DNA of 64,000 nucleotides from Aurelia coerulea. Lineage: Eukaryota; Cnidaria; Scyphozoa; Semaeostomeae; Ulmaridae. The notes under the pieces are model-generated. The model did no database searches. It was not told the DNA's origin and saw nothing but the letters and a program-made list of their open reading frames with translations. Below are positions 15,203 to 63,863 of this stretch, one piece after another. The position numbers and the translations under genes were made by a program. The stretch lies in NCBI GenBank assembly GCA_039566865.1, contig CM076944.1, forward strand, positions 6,718,501-6,782,500, read 5' to 3'. Each line of letters begins with the position of its first letter. Position 1 is the first letter of the stretch.

Positions 15203-15831
15203 CCGGATGAGTCAGAAAAAAGGATCCCCGCTTGGAAGGCCACTGCTCCGTGAATATCAAAGCAATAACATTGAAAAATGTCTTGTTTTATTGCCAATAT
15301 GCTCAATTAGGTTCAGTAATTTACCCGGCCTTAATCGGCAATTCCTTCCCGTGGATATGGGTGGTTTTCTGCAGAAAGCCCCTTCCAAAAACCTCCAAAA
15401 ACGAATGAAAACAATGAGCACATTTTCCTTCCTAAAATTGATGACACTCTCATAAATTCATGTATTTTGTCCTCTTGGGAGAATGGAATCCCCTTGAATA
15501 GGTCATCGATACCAGGGGGCGGTCTTGTTCATCAACCCAAGAGGATAGCACGTGCTAAAGCATTCACAAGTCATTGCTGTAAGGCATTGTAAGGCAGAAA
15601 TGTTAGGGAAATCTGTTCATGATTATGGGCACGTTTTGAAGGTTTTTTGAAGAGGCTTTCTGGAGAAAATCCCTCATAATTTCAGAATGGAGTAGCCGAT
15701 TTCAGTCAGGTAAATGTTATAGTATATTTGAACATTTCTACAATAAAACTATATATTTGCCGATATCATTGTCTTGATATCCAGGGAGCCGTGACCTTTC
15801 AAACGGGGATTCTTTTTTCTGACTCACCCGG
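15203..15831. mobile_element. CCGGGTG-clan MITE, type A (complete)
   Basis: Flanked by TA on both sides. The left end is CCGGATGAGTCAGAAAAAAG and the right end is its inverse (gactcacccgg). Long inverted arms contain 'ggccactgctcc' against 'ggagccgtgacc'. TA duplication fits Tc1/mariner-type non-autonomous elements. Confidence 0.82.
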
Positions 15832-15833
15832 TA

Positions 15834-16061
15834 TGTGTTGCGGAAGTTTGCTTAGGCCAAAGGCCAAAGCTCTGGTTTGGACGTGGAGGAAAATTTGAAA
15901 TTTCAAGAGTTATATTTCAACTCTCAAAGTATCTATAACAAATGAGGCATCTTTGCAGTTAACCATCGAGGAATATATTGAAATTGATTAGCCATTGATT
16001 AAAGCTAAATTCTCAACACTGGACCCAACCAAATGTGTATAGTTTTTTCTGGGACACCCGA
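15834..16061. mobile_element. CCGGGTG-clan MITE, type E (one half)
   Basis: Matches the right half of the element at 40419-41011: ttaaccatcgaggaa, acccaaccaaatg, and the terminal gggacacccga. The left half is missing and the copy abuts the type A element. Confidence 0.65.
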
Positions 16062-17366
16062 TATTTGAATTAAGCATTCGGCATCTGATACCTTTGCCGA
16101 TTTGGAAGGGTAGCAGATGCCAACTACAAGGAGCCGCTCTTGCACTAAAGATCGCGTCAGAGAACCCACTACCGTGATCCTTTGCGTCTCAATGAATTTC
16201 GAGTGATCTGATTGATCGTTTTGCTTTTTAACGCAAGGGAACATGGTTTAAAATTCCCTGATGCCCTCTTCTGCGCAATCGTCTTTGATGCAAGCTGTGA
16301 AATCTGCTTCAAGACTTGGATTACGAGGACTAAAGCACCAGAACACATGTAAACGAGGCAACAAACGAATGGCAATGCCAAAACTTTTATCTCAGCATTA
16401 GATGACCCAGACGAATATCTTAAGTGCTAGAAGATGAAGCATGAGGAGTTGAACATAAATTATTAAAATAAAGTCATAGAAAGATTTCGTATGAGTGCAT
16501 AATTCAAATGTGTTTAGGTTTTTATTTGCACATTGCAAATCCTCAAATCCTTGAGATTAAATTTCACACAATCATTGGAAGAAAATGTTCAGCGATCTTT
16601 AAGCTTTCTTTGATTATGAAACACCGCGTTGACTGAAAAAAGCTGGATTCAGGGGGCTTATCGATCGGATATAGACAACGCGCTCTCTCTTTTAGAGGGT
16701 ATATTTTGCTTTGGAGTATCAAGTCTAGCATATTCTTAGGAACTGACGAATAGCCGTGTTTCCTAAAAAGTAGCACCTTTTACTGAAACGACAGTATGAA
16801 AAAATTAACAAAATATCTGAAAAGTTGTAGCTCAAAGGCCCTAACCTAATTTTGACACAACATCGCAGAAATTGATTAAATTCACTTCCTTGTGACCACA
16901 TATCAAAATACGCTTGCAGAAGCCGGAGCCCTCTTTAACACGCAGATCGAATCAAAAATTGGCAAGACAATCAATCAGCATTGCTTCGAAAAATCGACAA
17001 ATATTCTGTTTTCATCGTTTTCGTTCGTTCATGTGACGCCTGTTTCAAATTGTGCCGACTTTAGTTGCGTTTTCAAATTCTGCCGTTTTCAAATTCTTCT
17101 TTCATGTGAACGGTAGGCCTATCTGTAGCAATTTGTTTCCTTTCCAAATGGTACTTGCAATTGCAAGTGGCATCGCATGGACATGTTTAGTTAATCTTAG
17201 TTGAGCTCAGCAGAAATGCCATTTGGTCACAAAGATTAACAGCAACAACTGCAACAACGAACAATCAGCTTGCCATTTTATCGTTTGAATTCATAATACT
17301 AAATATTATAAATCTCAAAAGTACAGAAACTTCCATCAAAGAAGTTTCTACTTTTTGGAAAATTTA
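16062..17366. other. No gene recognised
   Basis: Short frames only (up to about 74 codons) with no recognisable protein or splice pattern. No repeat family is recognised. Confidence 0.4.
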
Positions 17367-17775: not shown

Positions 17776-17934
17776 TATTTAAATTTATATGATTGACGAT
17801 TTTTTACATTGTTGTCCGAGTAAAATTTGGAGACAAAGTTTGGGCATCATTGCTGGCAGTCATGTGTTGTAAAGGGTAACTACAATGTAACATCAAATTC
17901 AAAGCTTTTGTTGAGGCCAACATACAGGGTATCC

Positions 17935-18672
17935 CAAAAAAAATTGATCGATGTTTGATTAAATGCTAAAGAATAACGAAACAATGAACAGGCGCCATGG
18001 TAAGATAACCATATTGCTGAGATTTTGAATTAATTTTAGACACTAGAAGCTAGCAAATCGGCTAAATATTCACGGAGTTACGAGCTTTTGAAGTTCAAGT
18101 TTGTGCGAAAGCTGAAACCAGACGCCCCTAAATTGCATATTTTGTGAAAGTAGAAAATCGTTTATTCAAAGCAAATCAAAAGGAACTTAAAAAGCACATA
18201 CGATCAACTAGCTTTCTCAAACATTGAATCAAGGTTACGGATTTTTCGAGGAATCCTGTTGAGCACAATTTGAAATGGCCCCGTCTCTCATCAATTAAGT
18301 TTTCATTCCATATTTTTGAATACATGCATTCTTAGTTAAATTTTGGCAACGGTTACAAGAATTAAAGAACTTTTGAAGTCCTATTTGGTATGCTCTGATA
18401 TCAACGAGAGGTTAAACATTGGACAGTCTTCTTTTACCTCGATTTTGGTACGTCTTTTAAAAAACAAGTCAGTAAGGGGCGTCTGGTTTCAGTTTTCGCA
18501 CAAACTTGAACTTCAAAAGTTTTTAGCTCCGTGAATTCTTAGCGGATTCGCAAGATTCTGGGGTCAAAAATTAATTCAAATTCTTAGGAACAGGGTTGTC
18601 TAACCAGGAACCTGTATACCATTAGTTTTAAATGTTTAATCAAACGTCGAACAATTTTTCTGGGACACCCTG
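17935..18672. mobile_element. CCGGGTG-clan MITE, type B
   Basis: Left end cagggtatcccaaaaaaaat, right end inverse (attttt.ctgggacaccctg). Arms hold 'gatgtttgattaaatg' against 'gtttaatcaaacgtc'. The left flank is TA; the right flank is TG, a likely mutated TA. Confidence 0.75.
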
Positions 18673-18779
18673 TGAAAGACTGGTCAACATCGTTCCTACA
18701 AGAGAGTGTATGACCACATTTACACTGTACTGGTACAGTTGTGATCTGTTAAAAAGTTGTAACGGTTCAAGAGCATTTT

Positions 18780-20885: not shown

Positions 20886-20889
20886 AGAA

Positions 20890-27191: not shown

Positions 27192-27193
27192 TA

Positions 27194-28706: not shown

Positions 28707-29036
28707 TCATAAAAAGCCCAAGTTCGGAATAAAAACGCGGCATAATTTACATGGGCAATTTTCTCCGTTCCAATTTTTTGATTTTGTTTTAAACTGACAA
28801 AGAGATTCTGAATTTCGTATAGTTAGTGGTAACGTTTTCCACAGCTGTGGACCTTTAAATCGGATGCTTTCTGTTCCGTTGTTGACAGATCTCACCCTAG
28901 GTTGGAAGAATTCGTTATTGTTACGCAAATTGTAATGACTTTCATTTTCGCAGAAAATTTCGTGCATGAATGAAGGGCTCAGGTTATTTTTTGTTTTGTA
29001 CATCTCAGTCATAAGTAACTGCAAGTTCTTTGCATG
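28707..29036 (-). pseudogene. LINE ORF C-terminal segment (frameshifted)
   Basis: Continues the element protein in another frame: NLQLLMTEMYKTKNNLSPSF, HYNLRNN and FKGPQLWKTLPL, which are typical of the region after the reverse transcriptase in this clade. A one-base-type frameshift near 29040 separates it from the main frame. Confidence 0.9.
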
Positions 29037-37487: not shown

Positions 37488-38125
37488 GTGTGGAAATTGC
37501 ATCAGGTGGCAGGAAACATCCAGGAAAGCTACCAGGTGTCCCCAAAAACTGTACAGAAGTTTGGAAACTTCTGAAGCCAAGAGTTTGTGGAAATTGCATC
37601 AGATGGCAGGAAACATCCAGCACCCAAAAAACTGCACACAAGTTTGGAAACTTCTGAAGCCAAGAGTTTGTGGAAATTGCATCAGGGGGCAGGAAACATC
37701 CAGGAAAGCTACTAGGTGTCCCCAAAAACTGTACAGAAGTTTGGAAACTTCTGAAGCCAAGAGTTTGTGGAAATTGCATCAGATGGCAGGAAACATCCAG
37801 GAAAGCTACCAGGTGTCCCCAAAAACTGTACAGAAGTTTGGAAACTCCTGAAGCCAAGAGTTTGTGGAAATTGCATCAGATGGCAGGAAACATCCAGCAC
37901 CCAAAAAACTGCACACAAGTTTGGAAACTTCTGAAGCCAGTTTGTGGAAATTGCATCAGATGGCAGGAAACATCCAGGAAAGCTACCAGGTGCCCCAAAA
38001 ACTGTACAGAAGTTTGGAAACTCCTGAAGCCAAGAGTTTGTGGAAATTGCATCAGATGGCAGGAAACATCCAGCACCCAAAAAACTGCACACAAGTTTGG
38101 AAACTTCTGAAGCCAAGAATTTGCA
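37488..38125. repeat. Minisatellite with alternating 97-bp and ~82-bp units
   Basis: Seven units measured from tggaaattgcatcag at 37491, 37588, 37671, 37768, 37864, 37944 and 38041. Spacings are 97, 83, 97, 96, 80, 97 and a final ~83. Long units contain 'gaaagctaccaggtgtcccc'; short units replace it with 'cacccaaaaaactgcaca'. Frames stay open on both strands through the array, so long ORFs here are artefacts of the repeat. Confidence 0.92.
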
Positions 38126-38905: not shown

Positions 38906-39687
38906 AACAAAAGAAAGTCTGGAAGAAATACCAAACAAGAAGTTTCAAATTCTGAATTTATTCCATGCCCATCTCATCAAGCACACTCTGAAGGTTTATG
39001 AAACACAGACAAAATTTAAATTGGACAACGGACAGCCAAGAAAATGACTTTTGAAGTTGGGCTTAATTCATTAATTTGCTTATAAAAGTACTTCTGGAAT
39101 AACGCTGCCTATACTGAATTTTCAAAGCAATATTTCTCTGCTCCAAAAAGTCGGACAAATTTTCGTTTTGATCTTATTTCCATCCTCCAGGCATGTACTT
39201 TCAAGTAATCTCAACGTTGATTGGAAATATTTATATTTTGGTACATTTTTATGCAATTCATAATGGCGCAAATTTTCAAAATTTATATCTTTAAAAATTA
39301 TTTCAAAAATTTAACTGTTGAAATATAAAAATTGAGGCAAAATGTATTTACCAACAAAATTTCAAATTTAACGCCACTAATTTTGCAAGTTGTTACCAAA
39401 GGGTTTGTTCCAAATCGTACCCAAAAATGAATCATGGTTTTTTCAATGTTTTCTGCAATAAAAAAATTTTGACGTTTAATAGCTAAAATATCCTGAAATG
39501 AAAAACTTGCCATCTATAAACAAATGCCTCTTGATGATGTATTTATTGTATCAAGTGTCGAATAAGGCTTTGTCAAGAAAATTTCATTTTTCTGCAATGT
39601 TGGTGTTACTTATTTTCGGGACTTTGTCAGGCAACGAAAGTTAGTTCTGTCAGCTGCAGGGATGAACACAGCAGCAAGTAAGACCGG
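38906..39687. other. No gene recognised
   Basis: AT-rich, short frames only. At 39685-39700 'accgggtgagtaaagaaaaa' is a type A MITE terminus fragment next to the following element. Confidence 0.4.
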
Positions 39688-39708
39688 GTGAGTAAAGAAA
39701 AATGTATA

Positions 39709-40317
39709 CCGGGTGCGCCAAAATAAACTATGCACGTTTGACAGGCCAATATAAATCGTACACAGAACCGATTTTGAAGATTTATGACTTAATCGTTAGC
39801 AGGAAGCCTGAATTAGATACTGGAATTTTTTGCAAATTTTTTCAGTTTCAGTTTTTAGAGCTAGAAGCGAGATTCCTAAAATTTTAGTTTTCGAAAACAC
39901 TGAAAACGATCAAAAATCATCGATCAAGTGTTTTGAAGAATCGACGTGAATGGAAAAAGAGAGAACTTGTCCGTGGTGATTTTCGATTTAGAAGTCGACC
40001 AATTGTAATCTGCTGTACGAGAGTTCGTACTAAACCCCAAATCCCCAAATCTCCCGGAAAACATTTTCTCTTTATTCATTCATGTTGAATTGTTTAAAGT
40101 TGATCGCTGTTTTTGATAGTTTTCAATGTTCTCGAAACCGAACATTTTAAGAAACTCGCTTCTAGCTCTAAAAACTGAAAATGGAAAAATTTGCAAAAAG
40201 TCAGAGAATCTAATTCAGGCTTTTTGCTAAAGATCAAGCCATAAATCTTCAAAATCGGTCCAGTGTACGATTTATTGTGGCCTTCCAAACGTGCATAGTT
40301 TATTTTGGAGCACCCAG
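39709..40317. mobile_element. CCGGGTG-clan MITE, type D
   Basis: TA-flanked, 609 bp. Ends CCGGGTGCGCCAAAATAAAC and inverse. Arms share 'ctatgcacgtttg' and 'tttagagctagaagcga'. A second copy lies at 48665-49265. Confidence 0.87.
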
Positions 40318-40418
40318 TAAATTTTTGAAAGCCTGTAGCTCTTACACAATTATCAGATTCCTATAAACTGATGATAGTGCATGTGCAAAGAACCCATCGA
40401 CTTAGATTTGAATATTTA

Positions 40419-41011
40419 CCGGGTGTTCCAAACAAATGTATACAGATTTGGTTGACTTCAGCGATGTGAATTTAGCTTCAATCAATGTCTAATCACTCTA
40501 AAAATATTCCTCAATGGTTAACTTTAACATAGATACCTCGTTTGTTGGTAATGGTGCTTTGAGAGCAGAGATGTTAATCTTGAAAGCTCAAATTTGCCTC
40601 TTCCTGCAAACCACAGCTTTAGCCTTATGGCCTAAGCAATTTCTTAAGGCATCGCGTATAAATCAACGATAGCTTCGATAAAATTTTAACAATATTAGAT
40701 CTGGTGTTATTCTGTCACCCCCAGTCACCCATGGGCAGTTTCTTGATTTTTCGCTATTTTCAGTTCTTAATTTCGATGTGCTTCAGGAACTTGCTAATGC
40801 CAAAAGGCCAAAGCTGTGGTTTACAGGTGGACGCAAATTTGTGGTTTGCAGGTGGACGCAAATTTGTGCTTTCAAGATTAATATTTCTGCTCTCAGAGCA
40901 CCAATACCAACAAACGAGGTATCTATGTTCAAGTTAACTATCGAGGAACATTTTGAGAGTGATTCACATCGCTGGAGTCAACCAAATGACTATACTTTTT
41001 GGGACACCCGT
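40419..41011. mobile_element. CCGGGTG-clan MITE, type E
   Basis: TA-flanked, 593 bp. Left CCGGGTGTTCCAAACAAATG, right inverse ending gggacacccgt. Arms contain 'ttggttgacttcagcgatgt' against 'acatcgctggagtcaaccaa'. Confidence 0.83.
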
Positions 41012-41092
41012 TAGTTTGTTAAAATCGATCGCATCGTTCTCAAATTACAAGCGATTCTTTTCAACCCAGAATCCCAGTTTAGCCGAACAGCT

Positions 41093-43800: not shown

Positions 43801-44196
43801 TAAATTCATCGAGATCGAGCCACAGAATCATGATTGACTTTTTCATCAAGCCCAAAATAAAAACATGCCTACTGTGAAGTATGATTACACACGAAATAGA
43901 GGCTAACATGACCTGGATATCGATGGGAGATAACGCTTATGAAAGAAGCCCGCGCGGTTTGATGACGTGAGAACTCGTGGCGATTTAGCGGCGATTTAAA
44001 ATGATGATTTGCATGACCGAAAGGAGTGACCTACCGATCATTAATATTTATATGCAATGAGGAAAAAATGATTTGCGATGCAAATCTCCTCGAAGTTAGA
44101 GATCAACTATAAACAGGTCTTGCAGCTTTTTGTAGGATGTTGGGTAAAAACACAAGGAAAGTTAATCAGTGAGCGATTAAGGCGCTAGATACACAA

Positions 44197-44996
44197 CCGG
44201 ATGAGTAAAAACCAATCCCATTTGAAAGGCCACTGCTCCCTGGATATTAAGGCAATAATACTGTTAAGTATATCATTTGATAGGGGACATGTTCAAATGT
44301 ATTTCAAAATTTACCTGACTGAAATCGGCTAGTCCGTTCTGAAATTATAGCGGATTATCTCAGGACAGCACCTTCAAGAAAACTTCAAAACAGGCTAAAA
44401 ATCACGACCAAATTTCCTGCCTTACAGCAATGACTTCTACATGTTTCTTGCGTTTTACTCTTTGCATGCACGTGTTATCCCTTTGGGAGGATGAATGTGT
44501 AATCCCGGAGCATAAAAACATTATTCCGGGTGAAATTACCCTCCTAAGAGGATAAAACGTGCTGTTTTTGTTTTCGTTTGTTTTTCTTATGAAATTAACC
44601 GTTGAATTGTAAGTTTCATTCATGGTGGGGACCAGATGACCTTGTGTCTTTCCCCGCCATGAATGGCACATGTAAATAGTATTTCATTCTATTTAGTATT
44701 AAGTTTTTTTGTCATAGAAAAAACGTGCTGAAACGTGTTGAAGTCATTGCTGTAAGGCAGAAATTTAAGGAAAATTTGGTCGTGATTTTAGGCACTTTTT
44801 GAAGGTTCCTTGAAGGGACTCTCTCGAGAAGATCCCTCACAATTTCAGAACGGAGAGGCCGATATCAATTAGGTAAATTCAAAAATGGATTGAAACATGT
44901 CCACCAATTAATAACATATTTGCCAATATTATCGTCCTGATATCCACGGAGCAGTGGCCTTTCAAAAGGGGATTATTTCTTTCTTTACTCAACCGG
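44197..44996. mobile_element. CCGGGTG-clan MITE, type A (second long copy)
   Basis: Left CCGGATGAGTAAAAACCAAT, right inverse ending tactcaaccgg before TA. Arms share 'ggccactgctccctggatat'. 800 bp. The left flank is AA rather than TA. The interior is longer than in the 15203 copy. Confidence 0.78.
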
Positions 44997-44998
44997 TA

Positions 44999-47610: not shown

Positions 47611-47768
<158 letters not shown>

Positions 47769-48664
47769 CTAAAACTCTTGTATAACACTTTCCAATGATC
47801 ATGAATGTCATGAGGTTTTGTGGGGTCGGAAACAACGAATATGGGATCCTATCATTGCTGTTTCTCAAATTTGGCCCGGTATCAATGGATATCTATGAGT
47901 CCTATTTGAGTAATTTCAGTTTGGTTGCGGTAAGGAGTTGATGGTAGCGATCATTAAGACTTCTAGTGATATGCCTACTGAGCAACACTGGCCATCAAAG
48001 AAAATAATCAAACAGTCTACATCCTTCTCGTTTAATTTCATCATAGAATTATTAAGAGACACAACTGCTTAGAACAACTAAACTGACTTTAAATAAATTA
48101 CAAATCTTAGCATCCTACTTAAATTTGAGAAAATGGGTGTTATCTTTTTGACATTAGGGTGTTACTTCTTTTGCAAGTCGGAAAAGCTGCTCCAGTATCT
48201 TACCGATGAAAACTTCAATTAAAACGTTCATGCCATACTCTGTAGTTGTTTCTTCTTCTCTATGTCCTTGTACCCGTGTAGGTTGGTGTTGTTGCGTCAC
48301 TCAAATTTTCAGGACACAGGGATACAAGGAAAATCGGCACATGGAAAGAGGGAAGGACAAAACTGCCGTATGAACAACAACTACAGCATTTCTTAACGCC
48401 CATGACCAAAAAAGTGATTTTTAGCTCCTCGTATAAATTTTCAACAAGAAATTGGAAGAATGTTAGAATTTCAAGTGATACAGAATCGACGGAGATGTCG
48501 TAATTGATATCTTTTTGTGGTTAAATTTCTTAAAGATTTGACAGTTCTCATCAACAAATTTCTGTTTGGATTATCAAAACAATATAACTTCCAAAATAGC
48601 TTCTTAAGGGGAAAGTAACTGTCCTTTTCTATTAGGTGTCCAGAAAAGCAATTCTATTATTCTA
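47769..48664. other. No gene recognised
   Basis: Short frames only. Nothing recognised. Confidence 0.35.
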
Positions 48665-49265
48665 CTAGGTGCGCCAAAATAAACTATGCACGTTTGGCAG
48701 GCAACGATAAATCTTACACTCGACCGATTTTGAAGATTTATGATTTAATCTTTAGCAGAAAGCCTGGATTAGATTCTAGGACTTTCTGCAAATTTTTCCT
48801 TTTACAGTTTTTAGAGCTAGAAGCGAGTTTCCTAAAATTTTCGCTTTCGAAAACATTGAAAACGACCAAAAAACGTCGATCAAATTTTTAAAGATTCAAC
48901 ATGAATGAACAAAGAAAAACGTTTTTGGCGGATTTGGGGGTCTAGTACAAACTCTCGTATAGCAGATTACAATTGGTCGATTTCTAAATCGCAAATCACC
49001 ACGAACAAGTTCTCTCTTTGTCCATTCATGTCGATTATTCAGAAAACTTGAACGATGTTTTTTATCGTTTTCAGTGTTTTCCAAAACTAACATTTTAGGA
49101 AACTCGCTTCTAGCTCTAAAAAATGAAAACAAAATAATTTGCGAAAAATCCTAGAATCTAATTCAGGCTTTCTGCTAAAGATTAAGACATAAATCCTCAA
49201 AATCGGTCCAGTGTACGATTTATTGTGGCCTGCCAAACGTGCATAGTTTATTTTGGCGCACCCGG
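48665..49265. mobile_element. CCGGGTG-clan MITE, type D (second copy)
   Basis: TA-flanked, 601 bp. Left ctaggtgcgccaaaataaac, right inverse ending gcgcacccgg. Internally very similar to 39709-40317. It lies just downstream of the STRAD stop codon (49669, minus strand), within or next to the 3' UTR. Confidence 0.87.
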
Positions 49266-49668
49266 TACATGTTCAATCTTACGTTCCAGCTTACCTTGCA
49301 TCACATTTCCTTGTGAAATACAACAAGGACGGTTCACCTTTTGAACAATGGCCCGTCTAAACAGATACTGTATCAAAGTACATACGGTACAAAACAAGTA
49401 GACTTACCACGTGAACCCCTTCGTTTCGCTTCTGTTTCTCGGGTAATAAGTCTGGCAAGGATGTATCTGGCCTAAAGTTTGCATTACAAAATCGATTTCT
49501 GCTCGATTTTTAGTATACAATTTTCCGAAAAAATCGTCACTATGCAGGCTGCCAATCAAGTTTTGTTAGATGTCATACCTCCTTGGGATCGTCCTAGTTA
49601 CATCCTTTGTATCACCTCAAATTGTTTTAGGTTACCTTCTGTATGTCTCCAACATCTGCTATGTGATT

Positions 49669-49745: not shown

Positions 49746-52700
49746 CTACGAAACAAAACAAATTGAACGGGGTGACTCAAAATATGGAGTGCGTTTGCCA
49801 ATCAATACTCGGTGACCTCAAAAATATACAAAGTTCTAAAAATTACATACAATCTGATTATGAGACTGATCTTGGCATATTCCTCCTTTTAGGCAATGTA
49901 TCTGGACAGAATACAAGATCATAGTTACCGACTGTCGATAAGTACGTAACAAAAATAGGCCTACATTTGCGAGTTTGATACAGTCATTTTGATAGTATTG
50001 ACAGATGGGCTAAGTAAAGTTCTGGTGACAATGCAGCTCAAAATTAAGGCTCCCAATGGGAAAAAATCTGGGACTAGAAAGATTAATGTTTCTTTCAGCA
50101 ATGATGTATGACATCATCGTTACTATATGGAATGGATAGGCCAATATGTGCTTCGATCTTCAATCCTCCGATTTTACGTCAATATGTGCTTCGATCTTCT
50201 ATTTTTTACAAGGCGATGGGAACGAAAGTCCATTCGCTCTGAAGGTGATATGAAAATCACTCCGACATGGTTGTGGCATGATATAAATGGTGCTATCGGA
50301 TCATGTGCAAAAGGAAACATATCATTCACTCACCAAATGTGTGTTTTTGTGTCAATTTTTCTGTGCAACGTGTTTTTCTGAAGACCTGGCCCCCTTAACT
50401 GTCTGCGCATGATGCTTCGCTGATAAAACAGTCCACTGCACAGTGCAAACGGGAGCATAGGTTCCAAGTCTTTAAAAAAGTTGCTGTTAAATTCTATGAC
50501 CAATTTCCTTTCACTGAATGGCTTCATTGAAACTTTAGCTACTTCTATACCGTTGAAATTTTCTGAAATCTTCAATATTTCCAGACTTACAGGGTTTTTC
50601 TCTTTTTTAAGAATTCAACAAAAACTTTGAAAAAAGACTTGAACATCTGGTAATTTCTAAACTTTTTTAGCATAGAAAACATGGATTAATCATCAAGAAA
50701 CTCATACTTTATAGATGTCTTTAATATGGCATCAAGTAAAAGTAGTTCATTCCTCTAGTCTACGATTTAGAAATTCGAAACAATACGCTATAACTAAAAA
50801 AAAAACGTTCGAGATTTCTGAAAAGTCCAAAGGTAGAATTATAGGTAAGTAGCAAAAGTGTCTTTCAAGTCAAGCCATTCAATTGAAAGAAATAGTTCAT
50901 AGAGTTTTACACCCACCTTTTACACCGATTTAAAGATTTTGAGCCTTTGCTGCAAACGGGGCCTGAATCTAAAGTCCGTCTCATATTAGATGTCTCCTGA
51001 GATTTGCGATAACGCAAAATTCCTTTGCAAAACACTTCTGCTGTTGTTATTCGCAGGCATTTGCAGGTGACATCTAATTTGAGACAGGCTACAGTGCCAA
51101 GCATTACGCATTACAAAACTGATAATTCAATAACTTACGTCCAGATTTTAACTTGGACAGATCAACGATTGGGGAAATTGGTCGTAGCATATCTGATATA
51201 TTTGAATGCTCTCTCCTTGATTTCTTTGCCTATAAAGGAAACATACCAGTAACATACAAAACTAAATTGCAACTGTAGCAGTGAAAAACGACATCAGGAA
51301 TTTGCTTAGTTTTGACTGAGGTTGAAATACAGTAAGGCCCCGCATTTAAGAAACCACTTTTTCACACCTTAGCCTAAAAGGTTTCTTATATCTATGATAC
51401 TTTTCATTTTTTTAGGCTGAAAGTTTCTTAAGTTTCTAATTTCTTTTCTTGAAAGTTCTGGAAAAATAGGTTACAACAGAAAATGTAAAATTTATAGATA
51501 GACTAGCTATAGTTGTATGTTATCAATGATTGTCAAGAACATCAATTAAAATTTAGGTAAAAATCTGTTAAATCCTATACATCTTTGTAGCAATTTCTTA
51601 TGAGCCCTGCGTGAAGTGGAATACTCCCCAGACCGTCAGACCTGGACTTAGTGTTGATCAAAATACAAGAAACTTCACTTTGGGTATAAGCCTCAAGGGT
51701 TTCTTAAACCTGTCAAAATTCACCAAAAACATACGATCGAATTGACAAGTATAGTATGAGACACCAACGAATACGTTTTGCATTAGCTTGGAAATAGGTG
51801 GTAATTCCTAGTGCATTCAAACGATTCTCAACAACGAAAACAAACTTATTCAATACTACAAGGCGATTGTTTGGATGCTTCTAATCCGAGTTGCATATTC
51901 CTAGGATAATATGCTCATTGCGTTGCAGCACTGCCGCTGATCAAAATTGATCCCTCTTTTTTGATGAATTTCAGCGGATTTTAGAGCTGCCTGTGTATTC
52001 ACTAAATCCTTATTTTGGCCAGTTTGTGATCTCGATAAAGATATAAAAAAATAGTAGGGATGAAGTCAGCTACCAAACAAAGTCTGAATCATTGATTTTA
52101 TTTTAAAATTTACTTGACTAAAATCGGCCACTCCGTTCTGAAATTATGAGGGACTTTGTCCAGAAATCCGCTTCAAAAGGCCTTCAAAAAAGGCCTAACT
52201 TCAAGACCAAATTTCCCAAAAGGAGTTTTCGTGAGAAGATCCCTCACAATTTCAGAACAGAGTGGCCGATTTCAGTCAGGTAAATCTTAAAATCTATTTG
52301 AACATGTCCACTATTGAATAATATACTTTCCATTATCATTGCCTTGATCTCCAGGGAGCAGTAGCCTTTCAAACGGGGATTTTTTTTCTCACCCGGTACA
52401 ATAAAACATATATTTACCTGTTTGAAAAACGAGCAACCAATAAGTGAAGTCGCAGATGGCCTGTTGACACAAAAAGAAACCAAGCAAAAATAAGTGAACA
52501 TTTTTCATTAAGGCCAGTTTCCAGTCAGTGGAATTTTCCGAGCGGACGGAAATTCTTTTGTTTACAAGGGAAAATGTCACTCTGTAATTGAATAGAAATT
52601 TAGGGTTGAATGACTTTTCATTGTGTAAAATTCCGCCCGCGAGGAGAATTCCACTGACTGGAAACTGCCCTTTAAAACCATCAAATAAATTAAAGCAATG

Positions 52701-55700
52701 CCTTAACACCGTTGAGAAACAAAAACAAACGTGTCGCTTGAAAGAAACTAAAGTGGACCGCATTCGGTTAAAAAACTGAAGATGCACATTTGCACTTCAA
52801 CTTGGGACTAAGTTCCAGTCATACGCATACATATGATATTGGTTTACTCATCTCTAAATCTACTGTTTTGAGCTGAGATATGTAGTTTTGGAATACTTTT
52901 GCAAATTATTCAAAGTTTGGTGCATTTTCTAATTTATTCATAAGCTTCTGGACCATCTATTTGAATTCAAAGCAAGATAGGCCATTCAAGTAATTGAGAA
53001 TGAAATTAGTTTAATAGTTATTGCATACCCTTTTTGCAGTTCTGCGCGTGTGGGAATTCCTGCTTTTGAGAACTACCTGGTTTTAATTCATACTCTCAAG
53101 CTGAAGAAGCTGGTCATAAAATTGCAGAACAATCTATCCAGCCATTCACTTTGTTCGCCTATGTTTGTGATCAAGCTCTTTTATCATTTCTGAGGCTCAG
53201 TTAAACAACGTTTTTTTGCCGTGTGGAATTTAATAGATGCTGCTAAAAACTTTCTAAGTGTCAATTAAATTCGACACAAAAACGATGTTTAAATCATCTG
53301 CCGTTTTGAACAGATAAAACGGCAGGAGTTCACCAGCTCGGTCGTATAAAACGGCAGAAAAACGACTTGATTTAAACATCGGTATTTCTGCCGCGTTTAA
53401 TTAATCAATTCTAGACCATGGTCCACGGTTTCTACGTGTGATCAGCCATTGCGCTTGCGTATTTTGAAAAATGGCCATTTTAACAATTTCAATTTCAATC
53501 CAACACGGCAAAAAATGATGTTTAAATCAAATTTTTAGACAAGGCAGATTCGGCCGTTTTTAATACAGTTCGATTCGACACGGCAAAACACGATGTTTGG
53601 CCTTACTCTAAATTTCAAACCAAGTCGCAAAAAGGCTTTTTGTGAAAATTTGCAATTTCTTAAAATACTATAGCTCAAAAGACAGTTTCTCAAGCAACGG
53701 TTTCGTGGTCTTTTTCCTTAGGAACAATACTACCAAATTCGCACACAAGTTGCATATCAAAAATTGAGTGTAATCGAACATTTAGTTGATATCAAATCCA
53801 TACCTTAGACACATTTTTGAAAAATCCAGAGGGCCCAAAAAATTTTGAATACATTTGATCATGAGAAATATCAGTTATCAATTTTGCGAGTTGATAAACG
53901 TCCGAAATTTATGTTGGTCAAATTTGCAGAATTCTCAAAACAATTCGGTCATAATTTGGCAATAACCCAAGCGTTCAACAGCAATAACGCATACCTTTAA
54001 AGACGTCCAACATCAAGAAAACAGCCCCTATATATGTTATTAACATTCTAAAAGCTGCCAAGATACCGGGTGTCCAAAGAAAAGTACTCCCGTTTGAAAA
54101 ATCACCAAAATTTAATTACACAGCCGATTTTCGATTTTTTTTTCAAGTAGATCAAGGACCAAATTATTTTCCAATATATAGTTATTCTTGTAATTGGTTT
54201 CAAAATTAGCGAATTTAGCTCTTTTTAGGGCTACCTGGTTTTGAATCATACTGCAAAAAAGCATTAATGATTGCTTGTGCATGTAAAGCTTCTAGTTTGG
54301 TCATAAATGACGGAAAGAAATGCGCACTATTATTGGAGACTTCAATAATGATAAAAAATCTGAAAATGTTGACTCTTATGCAAGACTGAGTATTTTGCTT
54401 CAAACTATAGCTCAAAATAAGGTTTTTCGACGTATAATTTTTCTACCTTAGCAAAAGCTGTATCATTTATTATGTTTGGGTCTTTGCAAACAGTGATAAT
54501 AAATACAAACAAATAACAGTATAAATAATCGAGCTTTAAACAGAGTTTTATTTTGTACGACGTTTCGGGCTTAAACCCATTATCATTACTTCATTTGATA
54601 ATGGTTTTAAGCTCGAAACGTCGCACAAAATAAAACTCTGTTCAAAGCTTGATTATTTATACTGTTATTTGTTTGTATTTAGTGAAATATCGTGCAACAC
54701 GCGTACAAGAAGTTTGTTTTTGCATTTGATAATAAATGCTTGATGATTTTTCAAACAGGAGTACTTTTTTATGGGACACCCGGTAGCTGTCTGTTAACAT
54801 TCTTAAGAATGCAGCATTTGTTTTCAATTTTTCAATGTTTTTGGCGAAATTTTACATACATATATTTATATATACATATCAATAATTAATCAAGGAACAA
54901 ACCTGTGATGTGGCTTTCTGTCGACACATGCCTCGACGAACTAAATGAAAAAAGATACCTTGTTCATCCTGCCAAGAGGATAGCACGTGCTAGCGCGTGC
55001 AGAAGTCATTCTGTAAGGCCCGTGAAAGGCAGAAGAGTTAGGGAAATTTGTTTGTGATTTTGGGCACGTTTTGAAAGTTTCTTGAAGAGGCTTTCTTGAG
55101 AAAATCCCTCATAATTTCAGAACGGAGTGGCCGATTTCAGTCAAGTAAATTATAAAATGGATTTGAACATGTCTTCAATTAAACCATATATTTGACGATA
55201 TCATCGTCTTGATATCCAGGGAGCCATGACCTTTCAAACAGGGATTCTTTTTATTGACTCACCCGGTAGTTAACCCTAGGCTGGGCTATCTGACACATCC
55301 TACTTTGACCAGATTTGGTCTACTAATAGCTCCATGCATTTAATTTCGTAAAATATAAAAAGTAGCTTAAAATTGCCGCACTTTTCCTTGTATGGTCAAG
55401 AATCAAGAAATATGCTATAAAATAAGATTTGGAGCATAATATTAATATAAACATGACAGTTATGATAGAATACACCAAATAACATTACTCTGCAAAAGAC
55501 ATTTGTCCCCCCGTCATTTGTCAAAATATTTCAATGAACTTTTACGAAGAGTTGCACAAATGGTTAAAAGTCAGAAAGTTTCATTGTTGTAATCTTCTCC
55601 TTTCAGAATTATCAGAACATTTCCAGTAGGGAGGAAGGGGGGAAACCAAACAGCTTCCGAGCAAAGTAACCAATAGCTATTTAGATTAATTCATATTTCA

Positions 55701-58700: not shown

Positions 58701-61700
58701 AATATAGCCTATTGCATTCCATTGTATTTGATGATATCGAGCGATTAGCAAATCAATTGGACAAATAGAAGCACTAAGCCATCTTTTGTTCTATTTCTAA
58801 ACAAGGCGCTATATATCCGTCATTTGTCTTCAAAGTACAACAAAATAGAATATATGTAAAAACAAGACGTTTCCAGAATATAGTCATGAACAAGTCATGT
58901 TTTTAGACAAAAAGGTGAATATTCTTCCCGCTTCAACTTCGCTGTGACACCCCATAGTGACACTATTATCTTTTTTTGTATTTATCTATAATCTCATAAA
59001 ATACAACATCAACTACAAAATATTACAAAAATGATGCCTCAAGGAGAATGGAAATACACTATTATCTTTACATACCTGCTCTAATACTTCAGGTGCAATC
59101 CATGGTAAAACAGCTACTGCATGACTTGGGAAATTATGCAATATTTTACGACGATGACCATTACTCCACATTGGATAACAATAACGTAGACCAGATAGGC
59201 ACACTCGACCATCAGAACAAACTAGAATATGACTGGCTTTAATTGCCCTGCAAACAAGAGAATTGTAATAAGGTGAGAATCGTCAATACAGTGAACTCTC
59301 TCAGAACGGACACCTCGTTAAGAAGGATATTACATTTTTGTCCCGATTGAGAGATTCCAATTAAAATTCTTCCCGCAAGACGGACACCTTAATAAAGCGG
59401 ACACAGTCAGTTGGTCCCTAAGGTCTACGATTCTAAAGAGAGTCGACCATGTATAACTTGGAGCAATGCTAATGCTTGTGGAACTTGGTTTTTACCATCA
59501 TGCAATTTTCAAAAATGTAAAAATCCCTGAGAAATTGTCTGGGAATTTTTCAGATATATAATTTCCCAAGAAAGCTTTGTTTCAGCGTTTCTTACTTTTC
59601 GCTCAATCAAAATTAGTAGCAAGCATTGCTAAAGACATCGATAGTTGTCATGCCTCAGCCCTTCCTGCCATTTTTAATTGCCTAAATATGGTGGTTCTGG
59701 TTTGTGCCTGATAGCAAATTTTGTGATTGCTGACTTATAACTCTGCAATTAAGCTCCTGAGGTGATAAGAAAAATACTAAAATTTGATTTAACCATCGAG
59801 GGTAATTTGGCTACAACTCTTGGCGTCAGAATTTTCAAAATTGTGTATATTTTTTGGGACACCAGGTACATGGTTGATTGAAATTGACTGATAAGAAATT
59901 CACCACTTCATATTTTTCGAAACCCATATCAAAAGTCATAAAACTATTTACAGTACTAACCTATGGACATATCCAGCTTTGTGAAGGTATTCCAAACCTT
60001 GTAGCACACTTTTAAGGATATATATGATAGCTGCGTCTGGTAAACCATTTTGAAATCCTGCTTGTATGATATCAGCACACGATCCTGTTCAAGAACAATG
60101 AGAAAAAGATTAAATACAAAAGCGTCAACATAAAAGAGCATTCTGTGTCAGGCCTGTGTTAGGCCCCGTTTATGTTAACCGTTTTCAATTGAAAAGGGCA
60201 TCATGAAATCATTCTCCTTTAGTCTTCCACTTACAATGAAACGTTTTCGTAACGAACATCAAATGAAACTGATTTAAAATGGGTGCCATCTGAAAACAGC
60301 AAGAGAGGTTTCAGTATGAACGCTTGAAAATGGAACGACTCTGCATATTAATTAGAAAGTATAGTAGAATGAAGCCTGTATTATAATATTTTACATGGAT
60401 AAAAATGAAAAATAAAATGAAAAAAAAAAAGTAGATAAAAATAAAACAGAACGATTTGGCTTCGAATTCAGAGTGAGCCAATAAATCTTTAGCTTTTCTA
60501 CAAAAAAAATCTGAATCGAACGATATTTTTACACATTTGTTAGAAGTTTCGCATGTGCACACTAGTGATCGAAGCTCTAACGTCACTCAATCGAGCCTTT
60601 CATATAAATATGGATAAAAATATCGCTCGATCCAGACTCTTGTAGAAAAGCTAAAAGGTCTTTTCTCGTCTTGTGTCTCACTTTGAATGCAGAACAATAT
60701 TGTTCCGTTTTCGAGTGTTGACGCTGAAACGCTTCCATTCGTTTTCAAATGGCACCGTTCTCAAATACGAAAACGTTTCAATGAAAATGGATGGCCAAAA
60801 CGGGACAATTTCGTACCATTTTCACTTATCCTGCTCTTTCTATGCACATTCATGCCATTTAAGACCATTTGAGGTAATGGTCATTAACAAACCTATCTTG
60901 GCCTACCGGGTGACCCAGAAAAAAGTGAACCAACGCAATCTGTTATAGAAAAAAATGTTAGTGGCCAATTGAATTGCTTCAAACGTTGCTCTGTCGCTAA
61001 AAGAGTAGCCCATATTATGACTATTTTTGTAAATTTTTGACATGGTGAATTTCTCGAATAAACGATTTCGAGGAAAACGACATCCATGAAATTCTCAAAA
61101 ACAGGGAATCAGTTTACAGCCATTCAGATCTTCAATCACAATGAGGAGCGTGCTTTATTTCAGTCTGGGAATATTTTTAGGTACCTAGGGACAATAAACT
61201 TGTCCTGAAAAGTTTCGACTGAGTTGCCTATTTCCGGGTTGAAATGAAACACCCTTCTTATTGTTTTGAAGATCTGAAATGGTTGTAAATCACTCCCCTG
61301 TTTTAGATTACTTTTTGAGGATTTCAGGCATGTCGTTTTCCTTGAAATCCTTAATTCGAGAAATTTACCAGGTCAAAAAGTTTGCAAAAAATACTGATAA
61401 TATGTGCTACTCTTTTAGCAACAGAACAACGTTTGAAGCATTTCGATTGGCCACTTACTTTTTTTTCTATAACAAATTGCAATGGTTCACTTTTTTCTGG
61501 GTCATCCGATAGGTCAAGATAGGTTTGTTAATGACCATTAGCTCATGCTTGTAGAGAATTTCAGGTATGTCCATTTCCTCTTTAATAGACCTTTTAGCTA
61601 TTCTACAAAAGAGCCTGGATCGAGCGTTCTTTTTACACACGAGGTTCGATAGAGTGGCGTTAGAGATTCTATCAATATTGTGCATATTCGAAAATTCTAC

Positions 61701-63863
61701 AAACCTTTGTAGAATTTTCGAATTTGCACAATAGTTTTAGAAGCTCTTAACACCACTTTATCGAGCCTCGTGTATAAAAATAACGCTCGATCGAGGCTCT
61801 TTTGTAGAATAGCTAAAAGGTCTATTCGGGAAATTTACCATGCAGAAAATATTGCGAAAAATACTCATAACGTACTGGTCTTTCAGTGATAGAAAAACGT
61901 TTGAAGCTTTTCAATCGGTCACTTGTTTTCTTTTCGATGACAGATTGCGTTGGGCCTCCTTTTTTGGGTGACCCGATACATATTTGAGTACTGTCGATCT
62001 TGAACTTACCATAATCAAAAAAAGGAAAAGCAGTCCAGATGTCTCTATTGTCCACAAATGAGCAGTGGAACGACATAATTGAAGGATGTTTCAGTTGACT
62101 TGATAATTGCGTCTCATACTAGAATAAAGAGAAATAATTATAAAATTTGGTAAAGATATCAGGTACATGAAATGGACTTCACATTATTGCAACCAACTCC
62201 ACAGAAATTCAATATTTCTTGGTAATCCTAAACAGTTAAAAGACTTGATCAACCTTCCATGTAGAGCTGGATTGTCTGTTCTACCTCTAAGATGTGAAAA
62301 CACGCAAATAAACTTTACAGTAAGGTTTGAAAAAGATATGCAGGTGAAAAATCTTGGAACAGCATCGCGCATATCATAAAACTATCTTAACTCAATGCCT
62401 TTTAATCATTTACCGCTTAACATATCAGTTTGCCTTTCAGTAGAAAGGGAAACAATCTGAGAAGGTAAATCCATATGGGCAATTATTAGACTGATGATAT
62501 GGTCGTAGTTATCGCTATTGAAATACTGCCGGACGCTCCTAACTACCAGTATGAGCGGTCTCCGTCTGGTGTAATAGTCTCGTTTTGAATAGCAATTACT
62601 GGGACTCATCGTAATCAGTCTAGGCAATTATGACTTACCTGTAAATTTTCTAAATCATTGTATTCTAAATTGTCAAGTTTTGTTTTTCTTATAAGCACTA
62701 TAGTCTTTGATGGTTTATGATCTGCAATCCACAGCCTTGATAGCCCATACGTTCCATTGCCTGCATAACACAAAACCAAATTTTAACATCTAAGATGATG
62801 CTATATGGGACAAATCAAAGTGGTTAATTTTACTTTAGGGAATTATAGGAAACATTGAAAGTAGGAAAAGACAAGACTGTTGCATTTTTAAGCTTCCAAG
62901 ACAAGAAGGCTTATTATATTCAACGAAACAAAACCGAACGAAATCGAAACAATTTTACCGTTAAATCCTTAAAAATCGATTGAAATAGCAAATTTAAGAA
63001 ATAAATAAATTTGCTATTGCAATCGATTTTTAAGGATTTAACGGTAAAATTGCTTTAGTTTCGTTCAGTTTCGTTCGGTTATGTTTCATTTTGTTGAATA
63101 TAATAAGCCGACAAAAATCTAGTTCCAAAATTGCTACTAATTTTCAAAAACATCTGCTGTTGGGTATCCTGCAAAACATTGGCTTACCTCTCCTTGTAAA
63201 GTTCTAATGAAAGGAAACTGCCAACCCTTGGCAAAATATTGTGTCTGTTTACAGCATGCTTCAAGCCTGATACTAATAAACTTGTTTTGAGTATGATTTG
63301 AGTATGTTTGCGAACTTGATTCAAGAAAGAATTTTGTACCGTGTGTGCTAGCTTGCAGCATGCATATCAAACTCAATCAAGCTTGATTGTAGTTAGCCTG
63401 CATGCAGACTCAAACTTTAGGATAGTTGAGTCTGCACGAAGGCTAGATTGTAGCATGTTTATGAATAATTCTAGCATTAGATTATTGCCAAACTTGATCA
63501 AGCTCTAATCATACATGCAAACAGGTCAAAATTGTGCCAAAATCTGAAGTACAAACAATTCATTCAAACCTGAAGAAGGGTACCCCCAAAACTTATTGAA
63601 TGTGCATAATTTCAATTGGCCTAGAATGCCAATTTGCAACATCTTTCAATGAATCACTACCTTCAGAAAAGTCTTAGTGCAAACACATTTTTACCTTGCC
63701 TTGGAACGATTCTGACAATCCAGTTTGGCCTGCCCTCATAATGGAAGTCTTGACAATTACATGATAATTTTTCTGGGAATATTTTTTCAAACGGCAACCT
63801 TTGCTTTGGCTTAGAACAACTCTCCGAACTCTCTCTACATTTTGAAACAAGCTTGAGGATCAT
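49669..63863 (-). CDS. STRAD: STE20-related kinase adaptor (STRAD) pseudokinase, 11 coding exons
   Basis: The eleven minus-strand exons (63863-63695, 62760-62639, 62118-62010, 60084-59961, 59247-59076, 58034-57930, 55953-55753, 54940-54903, 52460-52418, 51229-51139, 49745-49669) have GT-AG borders and matching phases throughout. They give 416 residues, the usual STRAD length. STRAD is the pseudokinase that, with MO25, binds and activates the tumour-suppressor kinase LKB1. Signs of a dead kinase: the VAIK lysine is Arg (VLIRK, R81), HRD is HRA (174-176, then IKASHIL), and DFG is LSG (192-194). Conserved STRAD phrases are [64 protein letters not shown] and [11 protein letters not shown]. The C-terminus is DDWDI, at the place of the MO25-binding WEF end of vertebrate STRAD. 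Exon 1 is least certain, being supported by phase and length only. Confidence 0.93.
49746..51138. other. STRAD intron 10
   Basis: Holds a foldback remnant at about 50440-51085 related to 1050-2370, with inverse blocks at 50445-50500 and 50905-50970 (tttaaagattttgagcc). No further exon is needed by phase. Confidence 0.6.
51139..51229 (-). CDS. STRAD: STRAD exon 10
   Basis: Residues 362-391. [20 protein letters not shown] and [10 protein letters not shown], matching the conserved ELLRPVTPI block. Borders TTTATAG|GC and GGAC|GTAAGT. Confidence 0.94.
51230..52417. repeat. STRAD intron 9 with pogo-like end and a type A MITE half
   Basis: 51330 on: cagtaaggccccgcatttaa, a pogo/Tigger-like terminus with a partial inverse at about 51700 (gggtttcttaaacc). 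52095-52396: inner and right part of a CCGGGTG type A MITE ending tctcacccgg before TA. Confidence 0.65.
52418..52460 (-). CDS. STRAD: STRAD exon 9 (43-nt microexon)
   Basis: Encodes (R)[14 protein letters not shown], the last helix of the kinase-like domain. Borders TCAACAG|G and CAG|GTAAAT. A type A MITE ends 19 nt inside the downstream intron. Confidence 0.94.
52511..52671. mobile_element. Short MITE, PIF/Harbinger-like by target site
   Basis: Ends aggccagtttccagtcagtg and inverse (cactgactggaaactgccct), flanked by TTA on both sides. A 3-bp TWA target is typical of PIF/Harbinger. It lies 50 nt from STRAD exon 9 and causes a spurious long minus-strand frame. Confidence 0.78.
53192..53604. 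mobile_element. Foldback MITE (TTTGCCGTGTCGAA ends)
   Basis: Left tttttttgccgtgtggaattt matches the inverse of gattcgacacggcaaaaca. Inner hairpins share 'gatgtttaaatca' and 'aaaacggcag' in both orientations. Confidence 0.72.
54066..54783. mobile_element. CCGGGTG-clan MITE, type C, with a nested palindrome
   Basis: TA-flanked. Left CCGGGTGTCCAAAGAAAAGT, right inverse (acttttttatgggacacccgg). Without the 180-bp palindrome at 54501-54680 its length (about 538 bp) equals that of the copy at 25990. Confidence 0.85.
54501..54680. repeat. 180-bp palindrome with hammerhead-like cores (Penelope-like element termini?)
   Basis: The arms are near-perfect complements of about 85 nt: aaatacaaacaaataacagt at the left, and its inverse actgttatttgtttgtattt at the right. 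Each arm contains 'gataatggg.ttaagc.cgaaacgtc', resembling the hammerhead ribozyme core (CUGANGA, stem-loop, GAAAC, GUC) carried by Penelope-like retroelements. The first core box is altered (UGAUAA), so activity is doubtful. Confidence 0.5.
54903..54940 (-). CDS. STRAD: STRAD exon 8 (38-nt microexon)
   Basis: Encodes [12 protein letters not shown] plus a split Arg, equivalent to FVEQCLQRNP in human STRAD. Phases on both sides fit. A MITE half begins within about 20 nt of its acceptor. Confidence 0.92.
54955..55266. mobile_element. CCGGGTG-clan MITE, type A (one half)
   Basis: Shares 'aagaggatagcacgtgct' and 'ctcataatttcagaacggag' with 15203-15831, and ends gactcacccgg before TA. It lies in STRAD intron 7, directly next to exon 8. 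Confidence 0.78.
55753..55953 (-). CDS. STRAD: STRAD exon 7
   Basis: Residues 268-334, 67 codons in phase 0. Starts [14 protein letters not shown], followed by a low-conservation, Ser/Arg-rich insert with RRKST and RSMSTP, as in the STRAD C-lobe insert. Donor CAA|GTAAGT. Confidence 0.93.
56339..56893. mobile_element. Long foldback MITE in STRAD intron 6
   Basis: cataatgcgagacttttgac at the left matches the inverse right end. 'ctataaagtgggcccccttt' and 'gggggcccactttataagag' are inverted inner blocks. 'catagggactcatacca' against 'ggtacgagtccctat' confirms a long stem. Confidence 0.8.
57486..57916. mobile_element. PIF/Harbinger-like MITE beside STRAD exon 6
   Basis: TAA flanks both sides (57483-57485, 57917-57919). 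Ends ggtcctgtttacacgggaat and inverse of ggccccgttcacacgggaac. The inside repeats 'aacgattgcgttcc' in both orientations. Its right end is 8 nt plus the TAA from the donor of exon 6. Confidence 0.82.
57930..58034 (-). CDS. STRAD: STRAD exon 6
   Basis: Residues 233-267, 35 codons in phase 0: [19 protein letters not shown] and [12 protein letters not shown]. Donor CAG|GTTCGT. A truncated tandem copy lies just upstream in the gene (58117-58208). Confidence 0.96.
57943..58290. repeat. 174-bp tandem duplication covering part of STRAD exon 6 and intron
   Basis: Unit starts attccagaaaaaggaatttg at 57943 and 58117 and ends gggccaagttaaaaata in both. The copies differ at only a few bases, so the event is recent. 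Confidence 0.9.
58117..58208 (-). pseudogene. Truncated tandem copy of STRAD exon 6
   Basis: Part of a 174-bp tandem duplication (57943-58116 and 58117-58290). This copy keeps the acceptor and the first 92 nt of the exon, with one amino-acid change (S to C in EKSDIYS). It lacks the last 13 nt and the 5' splice site. Including it would require a cryptic donor, so it is most likely ignored by splicing. Confidence 0.88.
59076..59247 (-). CDS. STRAD: STRAD exon 5
   Basis: Residues 175-232. It begins with the degenerate catalytic loop (R-A-IKASHIL), then CLSGLR in place of DFG, and the activation segment to APEVLEQ. The most diagnostic exon of the gene. Confidence 0.96.
59290..59445. mobile_element. 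pogo/Tigger-like fragment
   Basis: cagtgaactctctcagaacg, then ggacacctcgttaag and cggacaccttaataaagcgg, the style of pogo/Tigger ends. No clear right terminus. Confidence 0.5.
59610..59872. mobile_element. CCGGGTG-clan MITE, type E (one half)
   Basis: Contains aaccatcgagggtaatttgg and ends tttttgggacaccagg before TA, as in the right half of 40419-41011. Located in STRAD intron 4. Confidence 0.65.
59961..60084 (-). CDS. STRAD: STRAD exon 4
   Basis: Residues 134-174. [19 protein letters not shown], then [19 protein letters not shown], the helix before the catalytic loop. Confidence 0.95.
60345..60450 (+). mobile_element. LINE 3' end fragment
   Basis: attagaaagtatagtagaat with an A-rich tail, as at 35560 and 43735. 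Confidence 0.6.
60486..60661. mobile_element. Hairpin MITE (CTTTTAGCTATTCTAC family)
   Basis: tttagcttttctacaaaaaa at the left matches the inverse of tgtagaaaagctaaaaggtc at the right. The inner 'gaagctctaacgtcactc' part recalls the arms of 61588-61822. Confidence 0.7.
60906..61509. mobile_element. CCGGGTG-clan MITE, type F
   Basis: TA-flanked, 604 bp. Left CCGGGTGACCCAGAAAAAAG, right inverse ending ctgggtcatccga. Arms share 'gtgaaccaacgcaat' against 'attgcaatggttcac'. In STRAD intron 3. Confidence 0.82.
61545..61976. mobile_element. CCGGGTG-clan MITE, type F (half) with nested hairpin
   Basis: Right half of a type F element ending ttgggtgacccga before TA, interrupted by the hairpin at 61588-61822. 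Confidence 0.75.
61588..61822. mobile_element. 235-bp near-perfect hairpin MITE nested in a type F element
   Basis: gaccttttagctattctaca and its inverse form the ends, with TA on both sides. The arms meet in 'aaaattctacaaacctttgtagaatttt'-like sequence near 61700. Removing it rejoins the host element. Confidence 0.85.
62010..62118 (-). CDS. STRAD: STRAD exon 3
   Basis: Residues 98-133. [20 protein letters not shown] aligns with the alpha-C to beta-4 region. Borders TTCTAG|TA and TATG|GTAAGT. Confidence 0.92.
62487..62622. mobile_element. TAGACTGAT MITE with exact 9-bp target duplication, beside STRAD exon 2
   Basis: Direct repeats GGCAATTAT lie at 62478-62486 and 62623-62631. 136 bp, nearly identical to 32380-32513. 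The near duplication begins at intron position +8 from the exon 2 donor. Confidence 0.92.
62639..62760 (-). CDS. STRAD: STRAD exon 2
   Basis: Residues 57-97. Encodes [17 protein letters not shown] and VLIRKTKLD, where Arg replaces the ATP-binding Lys. Borders TTATGCAG|GC and TTACAG|GTAAGT. Confidence 0.9.
62761..63694. other. STRAD intron 1
   Basis: Contains an inverted pair 'aatcgattgaaatagcaaattt' style at about 62975-63035 (ttaaaaatcgatt against aatcgatttttaa, with flanking ttcgtt blocks) and the micro-hairpin at 63394-63445. A short open segment at 63187-63242 with good-looking splice ends does not fit the phase of exon 2. Confidence 0.5.
63394..63445. mobile_element. Micro-hairpin element, second copy
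   Basis: tagcctgcatgcagactcaa matches the inverse of ttgagtctgcacgaaggcta. Same ends as 46505-46584. Confidence 0.7.
63695..63863 (-). CDS. STRAD: STRAD exon 1 (probable)
   Basis: ATG at 63863 opens 56 codons plus 1 nt, ending CAAG|GTAAAA in the phase required by exon 2. The sequence WIVRIVPRQ then G(N)GTYG would form the start of the kinase-like lobe. An upstream in-frame ATG at 63941 reads through a CA repeat and is less likely. The N-terminus is poorly conserved in the family, so similarity cannot confirm it. Confidence 0.6.

Follow-up and report, generated by a model that had tools for sequence, protein, structure and literature searches.

Probable Tc1/mariner-type MITE families with a common end signal and dissimilar interiors in the scyphozoan jellyfish Aurelia coerulea

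Described MITE systems and the jellyfish elements

The plant MITEs known as Stowaway carry the end CTCCCTCC. In rice, 25 Stowaway families are described as lying at TA sites with no cognate autonomous elements, and Osmar mariner-like transposases are reported to mobilise Stowaways in yeast (PMC3660474); nine Stowaway families of carrot are reported to have one common end (PMC3695323). The aphid element Apismar4.1, a Crmar2-like mariner of the rosa (DD41D) group, is accompanied by MITE4.1 and MITE4.2 of 349-578 bp (PMC5490172), and the ends of maT (DD37D) elements are reported to start with CAGGG (PMC8472432). The mariner MITEs of Drosophila and Rhodnius are described as obtaining long inverted arms when one side of the element is replaced by the other (PMC4161770, PMC4678618). 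MITEs of jellyfish as such have already been predicted by program (PMC7305137).

We analysed a stretch of 64,000 nucleotides of the Aurelia coerulea genome (the window; contig CM076944.1, positions 6,718,501 to 6,782,500), in which seven groups of short elements, A to F and G, carry a common end signal beside TA. We consider it probable that these are Tc1/mariner MITEs of a scyphozoan jellyfish, the unrelated interiors of which were mobilised by a shared small pool of mariner-lineage transposases. The clan is a new example of a known arrangement, comparable to the plant Stowaway MITEs, in which elements hitchhike on a borrowed transposase. It resembles the rice Stowaways in its many families, short common ends, TA target and orphan families (PMC3660474), but the plant elements have other, shorter ends, and cross-mobilisation is experimental for Stowaway and Osmar and only inferred for the jellyfish clan. 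Membership of Stowaway in the strict sense was rejected, as the clan ends are CCGGGTG or close variants and not the Stowaway sequence; the clan works alike without being a member.

The comparison with animal systems is similarly mixed. Apismar4.1 has a 32-bp end, GGGTGTCTCAAAAAG...GGATTTRAA, beside TA that came nearest to the clan signal among the published ends compared, but the aphid MITEs are described as internal deletions of the autonomous element (PMC5490172), whereas no autonomous relative is known for the clan interiors. The DD37D/maT elements have the TA target and are reported to start with CAGGG (PMC8472432), as group B does, whereas A, C, D, E and F start in a CCGGG-like manner. 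Long inverted arms are common to the clan and the Drosophila and Rhodnius mariner MITEs, but the rearranged part of Rhodnius Rpmar49 is reported to have transposase homology (PMC4678618) and none was seen in the clan. The coral CMITEs are likewise cnidarian MITEs with several families and tandem arrays, but they are described as piggyBac-linked and better conserved in the interior than at the ends, which is the opposite pattern (PMC2872659). Six exact variants of the clan end matched text in 14 papers, none of them on transposons by title, in a literature where ends often sit in figures or supplements and where subscription papers lay mostly outside the search. GGGTGTCCC together with mariner terminal inverted repeats was not found in the literature searched, and no title or abstract start among the matches listed pointed to such a clan of MITEs in a jellyfish, subscription literature again being mostly outside the search.

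Apart from these elements, the window encodes a major-facilitator protein (12514-14337, minus strand) and LINE-type reverse transcriptase and endonuclease ORFs in pieces (28707-31561, minus strand). Among 105 listed relatives of the major-facilitator protein, the best is 99% identical and bears the EukProt label "Seg582.4 ... GoldUCD", which probably refers to the California Aurelia genome, credited in PMC7305137 to Gold et al.; the next with a species name, from Rhopilema esculentum, is 65% identical, and those ranked between the two have 64-73% identity. Three head-to-tail copies, approximately, of a ~1.05 kb unit occupy 6743-9900 (82-87% identical by self-BLAST), 51 copies of a 20-bp tandem unit that is open in three frames occupy 20887-21908, and a tRNA-like gene called as Phe with anticodon AAA lies at 45497-45570 (Rfam tRNA, 55.8 bits).

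The common end signal and its mariner affinities

The consensus terminal repeat, adjoining TA, reads CCGGGTG-nn-YCA-n-AAAAAA-n5-C-n3-TTTGR (~33 bp) and consists of two blocks, positions 1-19 and 25-33. Information content, computed with one representative for each of the seven groups, is mostly high over positions 1-19, apart from the variable positions 8 and 13, falls at 20-24 and recovers over 25-33. The second block is present in six of the seven groups, F having block 1 only, and this conservation to position 33 does not support the proposal of the initial annotation that the transposase recognises only the outer ~15 bp. A, C, D, E and F start with CCGGG or a close form and B with CAGGGT; a start of B at 17935 with CCGGGTG had been given, and we place it at 17925. 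At positions 8-10, TCC is common to B, C, E and G, and A, D and F each have their own letters, which are mostly kept at both element ends. Identity of the ends between families averages 68.5% (range 57-79%).

An origin of these ends by chance or as a simple repeat is refuted, with the A-rich stretch within the end as the one point in its favour. The window holds 28 matches to TACCGGGTG with one mismatch or none, not all of which are element ends, where 3.5 are expected, and none of 100 shuffles gave more than 12. A non-circular test was obtained by rebuilding the end model seven times with one family withheld each time: 17 of the 23 ends scored above everything in 20 shuffled windows, with at least one from every family, the models for E and G being not fully independent owing to the possible kinship of these groups. 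Among the 23, the A2 ends at 44197 and 44996 gave no match and those at 52396, 40317, 48665 and 61976 lay within shuffle noise. The common ends first described in six groups were thereby borne out. A 34-letter end pattern with up to three mismatches was found 13 times in the window against 0.00 expected, although this pattern was written from the same ends and its count rules out a chance origin and nothing further; it had no match in collections of prokaryotic genomes and viral contigs. A 20-letter pattern matched at 20 IMG/VR loci, which we took as chance as no inverted pair of good ends stood at element distance.

No transposase domain was detected in the 237 stop-to-stop ORFs of at least 60 amino acids in the window (scanned as 8, 147 and 82, with two simple-repeat arrays left out), a search that shorter decayed pieces could escape. 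Among 82 of these ORFs, 64 of them in 639-14338, Pfam gave matches of weak to moderate strength to an FAD/NAD-binding oxidoreductase, the best for NAD_binding_8 with E 1.2e-5. When 49 published ends were compared with the clan signal, the closest was that of Apismar4.1 (z 9.6), and second came a cecropia-type mariner (z 6.4). The remaining rosa ends, those of Apismar4.2 and Apismar4.3, did not match (z 1.7 and 0.4). Seven of the 49, from several mariner subfamilies, reached scores attained by none of 500 shuffles. Since several subfamilies are found among the strong matches, the ends point to mariner with more certainty than to rosa: we assign the clan to the mariner lineage with reasonable confidence on end similarity, and to rosa/DD41D tentatively. 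The maT-like CAGGG start of B, alone among the seven groups, is a likeness of five bases drawn without a full maT end in the comparison.

On the preferred reading, a mariner-lineage transposase, rosa/DD41D-like by the ends or maT/DD37D-like, would have recognised the two end blocks together, excised the elements and reinserted them at TA. With only the ends being read, one small set of related transposases could have moved unrelated interiors, and several closely related enzymes would give the same picture as one. The lineage, the two-block binding, the excision, the insertion at TA and the sharing are steps that we infer. The letters of A, D and F at positions 8-10, which one transposase need not explain, count against this reading, as do the CAGGG start of B, the lack of block 2 in F and the negative result for transposase domains in the ORFs of the window.

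These letters would be accommodated if every family had a separate autonomous mariner lineage, with ends that are alike by mariner descent and little or no sharing of transposase. More than 30 mariner lineages are reported to coexist in Rhodnius, with ends similar within subfamilies, but the same paper gives a longer partner for only four of 15 Rhodnius MITE clusters (PMC4678618). Agreement between left and right ends is expected anyway if the arms arise by inverted duplication, which makes the family letters weak evidence, and four groups have the same letters at these positions. We regard such separate lineages as rather unlikely, though a serious alternative to the shared pool.

The elements, their TA sites and an insertion of A1 into E2

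All elements are read on the plus strand except where stated. A1, a complete A-type MITE with TA on both sides (15201..15833; arms 15201-15309 and 15725-15833; exact 2-bp TA repeat), is inserted into an E element, so that the "E half" previously placed at 15834 is one side of a split element, E2, and not a half. The left piece of E2 (14985..15200) was recognised by alignment to the complete E element E1, with 14985-15057 matching E1 40620-40692 at a score of 82 against a shuffle maximum of 65. The right piece (15834..16063) was recognised by self-BLAST to E1 and bears a terminal repeat at 16063 that the leave-out model scored at 26.1 bits. Joined, the two pieces score 222 against a shuffle maximum of 45. 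The own left end and left arm of E2 were not identified, the alignment to E1 beginning at 14985. Lone clan-like ends with no recognised partner lie at 14693, 28456 and 38442, and the first of these could be the decayed left end of E2.

B is a complete MITE (17923..18674) with ends CAGGGTGTCCCA, a decayed right TA and arms that are 81% complementary; the model built without family B detected its two ends, at 9.9 and 12.6 bits. Complete with TA at either side are C1 (25988..26538), which has short arms, D1 (39707..40319), with arms of ~217 nt, and E1 (40417..41013). A fragment of an A-type terminal repeat lies at the left flank of D1 (39684..39706), into which D1 may have been inserted. The A-type model across the joined flanks gave 9.1 bits (E 0.042), and in pairwise alignment they scored 39 with A2 (best shuffle 38) and 38 with A1 (best shuffle 41), so that a position of D1 inside an A-type end is suggestive only. 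D2 (48663..49267, minus strand, TA on both sides) is complete, 87% identical to D1 and in opposite orientation to it. Its left flank has a TIR-like stretch at 48630, and D2 was considered as an insertion in another clan end, for which alignments of the joined flanks to ten element sequences gave no support.

A2 (44195..44998) is a complete but decayed A-type MITE flanked by AA and TA, A3 (52099..52398) is an A-type element without its outer left end, and A4 (54959..55268) is the right half of an A-type element, 87% identical to A1 over 311 bp. C2 (54064..54785, TA on both sides) is a complete C-type MITE broken by an unrelated palindrome at 54500-54681. The palindrome is near-perfect (arms of 86 nt, 94%, with a 10-nt spacer), has ends that are not those of the clan and has a related piece at 43016-43099.

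G (59695..59868) is the right end of a possible distant relative of E, detected by the other-family model at 12.5 bits, and no self-inversion was found in it. It had been called an E half at 59610. Likeness to E is distant at best: G and E1 are 59% identical over 177 bp (E 9.6e-5), but under other scoring the pair reaches 59, below its best shuffle at 63. The alignable part begins at ~59695, and we name it G. A tandem array found by TRF at 37489..38115 has units of ~97/176 bp, and in several of them there is a terminal repeat of G type, with 77% identity to G over 79 bp (E 4e-10); the array is a satellite that grew out of a MITE end. Together with F, treated below, the elements make up 17.5% of the 15-62 kb region (8,232 of 46,994 bp, a sum that includes the 627-bp derived array and 425 bp of foreign palindromes), where a "large share" had first been claimed.

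TA adjoins 20 of the 22 ends, the exceptions being the left end of A2 (AA) and the right end of B (CA on the element strand). Of nine paired elements, seven are flanked by an exact TA repeat of 2 bp and the other two are decayed, and a repeat longer than 2 bp flanks none of the nine. The P value of 1e-21 for TA adjacency is too optimistic, because TA was part of the pattern used for the initial collection of ends.

The empty site of A1 is independent of that pattern. With A1 excised and one TA kept, the flanks in E2 align to E1 through the junction with no gap, scoring 200 where the best of 200 shuffles scored 60; the corresponding dinucleotide in E1 is GA. As E1 aligns gapless at the single-TA junction, the second TA arrived with the insertion of A1. 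If the elements came from a different superfamily and had TA as the terminal dinucleotide of their ends instead of as a duplicated target, its near-constancy at the boundary would be expected. Against this alternative stand this junction, the one good empty site, and the lack of a longer flanking repeat in the nine paired elements, and we hold it to be very improbable. The 2-bp TA target-site duplication that marks the Tc1/mariner superfamily was thus found in the clan, and the TA target proposed in the initial annotation withstood the empty-site comparison at the one site where it could be made well.

Interiors, the F locus and the growth of the clan

Bodies were compared after removal of the outer 45 bp, with 60 shuffles for each of 50 between-family pairs. 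The related interiors of a single family were not found: 48 of the 50 pairs did not exceed their own shuffles, and the five within-family pairs scored 228-742. The two that exceeded them were D1 with the F segment 60904-61511 (F1), at 72 against a maximum of 52, and E1 with G, at 39 against 37. Apart from these doubtful exceptions, the interiors of the groups thus appear to be unrelated, as had been proposed. Similar ends on unrelated bodies are the contrast that selection on a transposase recognition signal predicts.

One ancient MITE family, in which the interiors drifted while selection held the ends so that the bodies are not independent in origin, could also produce such a contrast, and would draw on the D1-F1 score and on the 59% identity of E and G. 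The first is not robust, with one of 16 arm pairs beating its shuffles, the second failed under the other scoring, and the great majority of body pairs show no relation, which makes a single ancient family quite improbable beside unrelated interiors under common ends.

With sizes of ~550-800 bp, inverted ends and no transposase domain the elements are MITEs, and together with the TA repeats this agrees with the Tc1/mariner-type structure and mechanism first suggested for them. Each type had also been credited with its own long inverted arms. Beyond the end signal, A, B, D and E have long arms; those of C1 reach ~120 nt and those of C2 were not detectable past the signal. Copies of the same family are ~77-87% identical in their best-aligned stretches, which indicates that they are old and probably no longer moving.

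The F locus, read as one element, spans 60904..61978 with TA on both sides and comprises a left arm (60904-61101), a loop, an inverted copy of the left arm and a right arm (61549-61978). The inverted copy (61312..61545, minus strand) matches the left arm at 175 positions, with 23 mismatches and 2 gaps, and carries in addition 34 bp of the left host flank (60870-60903), 32 of which match; the inverted arms of F1 thus run 34 bp beyond the TA. The right arm contains an unrelated palindromic insert (61584..61826, unstranded; self-palindrome of 89% over 244 bp). Once this was left out, the right arm aligned to 198 bp of the left arm at a score of 171 against a maximum of 43 in 200 shuffles (144 matches, 41 mismatches and 15 gaps), a divergence much like that of the arms in the other families. 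It ends in its own TA, and the whole locus shows an exact 2-bp TA repeat. A second palindromic family lies on both sides of the F locus (61584-61826 and 60480-60665), with ends near GACCTTTTAGC and possibly at TA.

The simplest reading of this arrangement is that F and the "F half" that had been placed at 61545 are one element that contains a younger duplicate, in inverted orientation, of the left arm and its flank, the supposed half being the right arm of the same locus. Fold-back copying during failed gap repair would be able to yield such a copy, and abortive gap repair has been proposed for the long-armed mariner lineage Rpmar49 (PMC4678618). A possible but less favoured reading makes F1 a separate MITE that was inserted at the centre of a palindrome beside a truncated F copy. 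When its flanks are joined, 33 of 35 pairs and seven of the eight central pairs match, and the window has six short-spacer palindromes including this site, of which 61662-61747 is equally tight at its centre, so that such targets do exist. It is less favoured because the neighbouring F piece supplies the right arm that was missing and ends in a TA of its own.

The F locus may also bear on how the clan grows. A lone mariner end beside arbitrary DNA might be copied in inverted form during failed gap repair and so become a new MITE; the long arms would then be captured host DNA, the 33-bp end would be the only shared part, and the F locus would preserve one such event, its copied arm retaining 34 bp of host flank. 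Families of such origin would have the same end and their own unrelated long arms. De novo formation of MITEs from solo ends was described as without empirical support at the date of an earlier paper (PMC4161770), and we hold growth by fold-back to be unlikely as a general account of the clan.

These elements are probably a jellyfish counterpart of the Stowaway arrangement, with many unrelated short elements under one mariner-type end code. The two-block 33-bp end provides a concrete probe for the responsible transposase in the host genome and, if the fold-back reading of F is true, the locus would offer a testable route to new MITE families with unrelated interiors.
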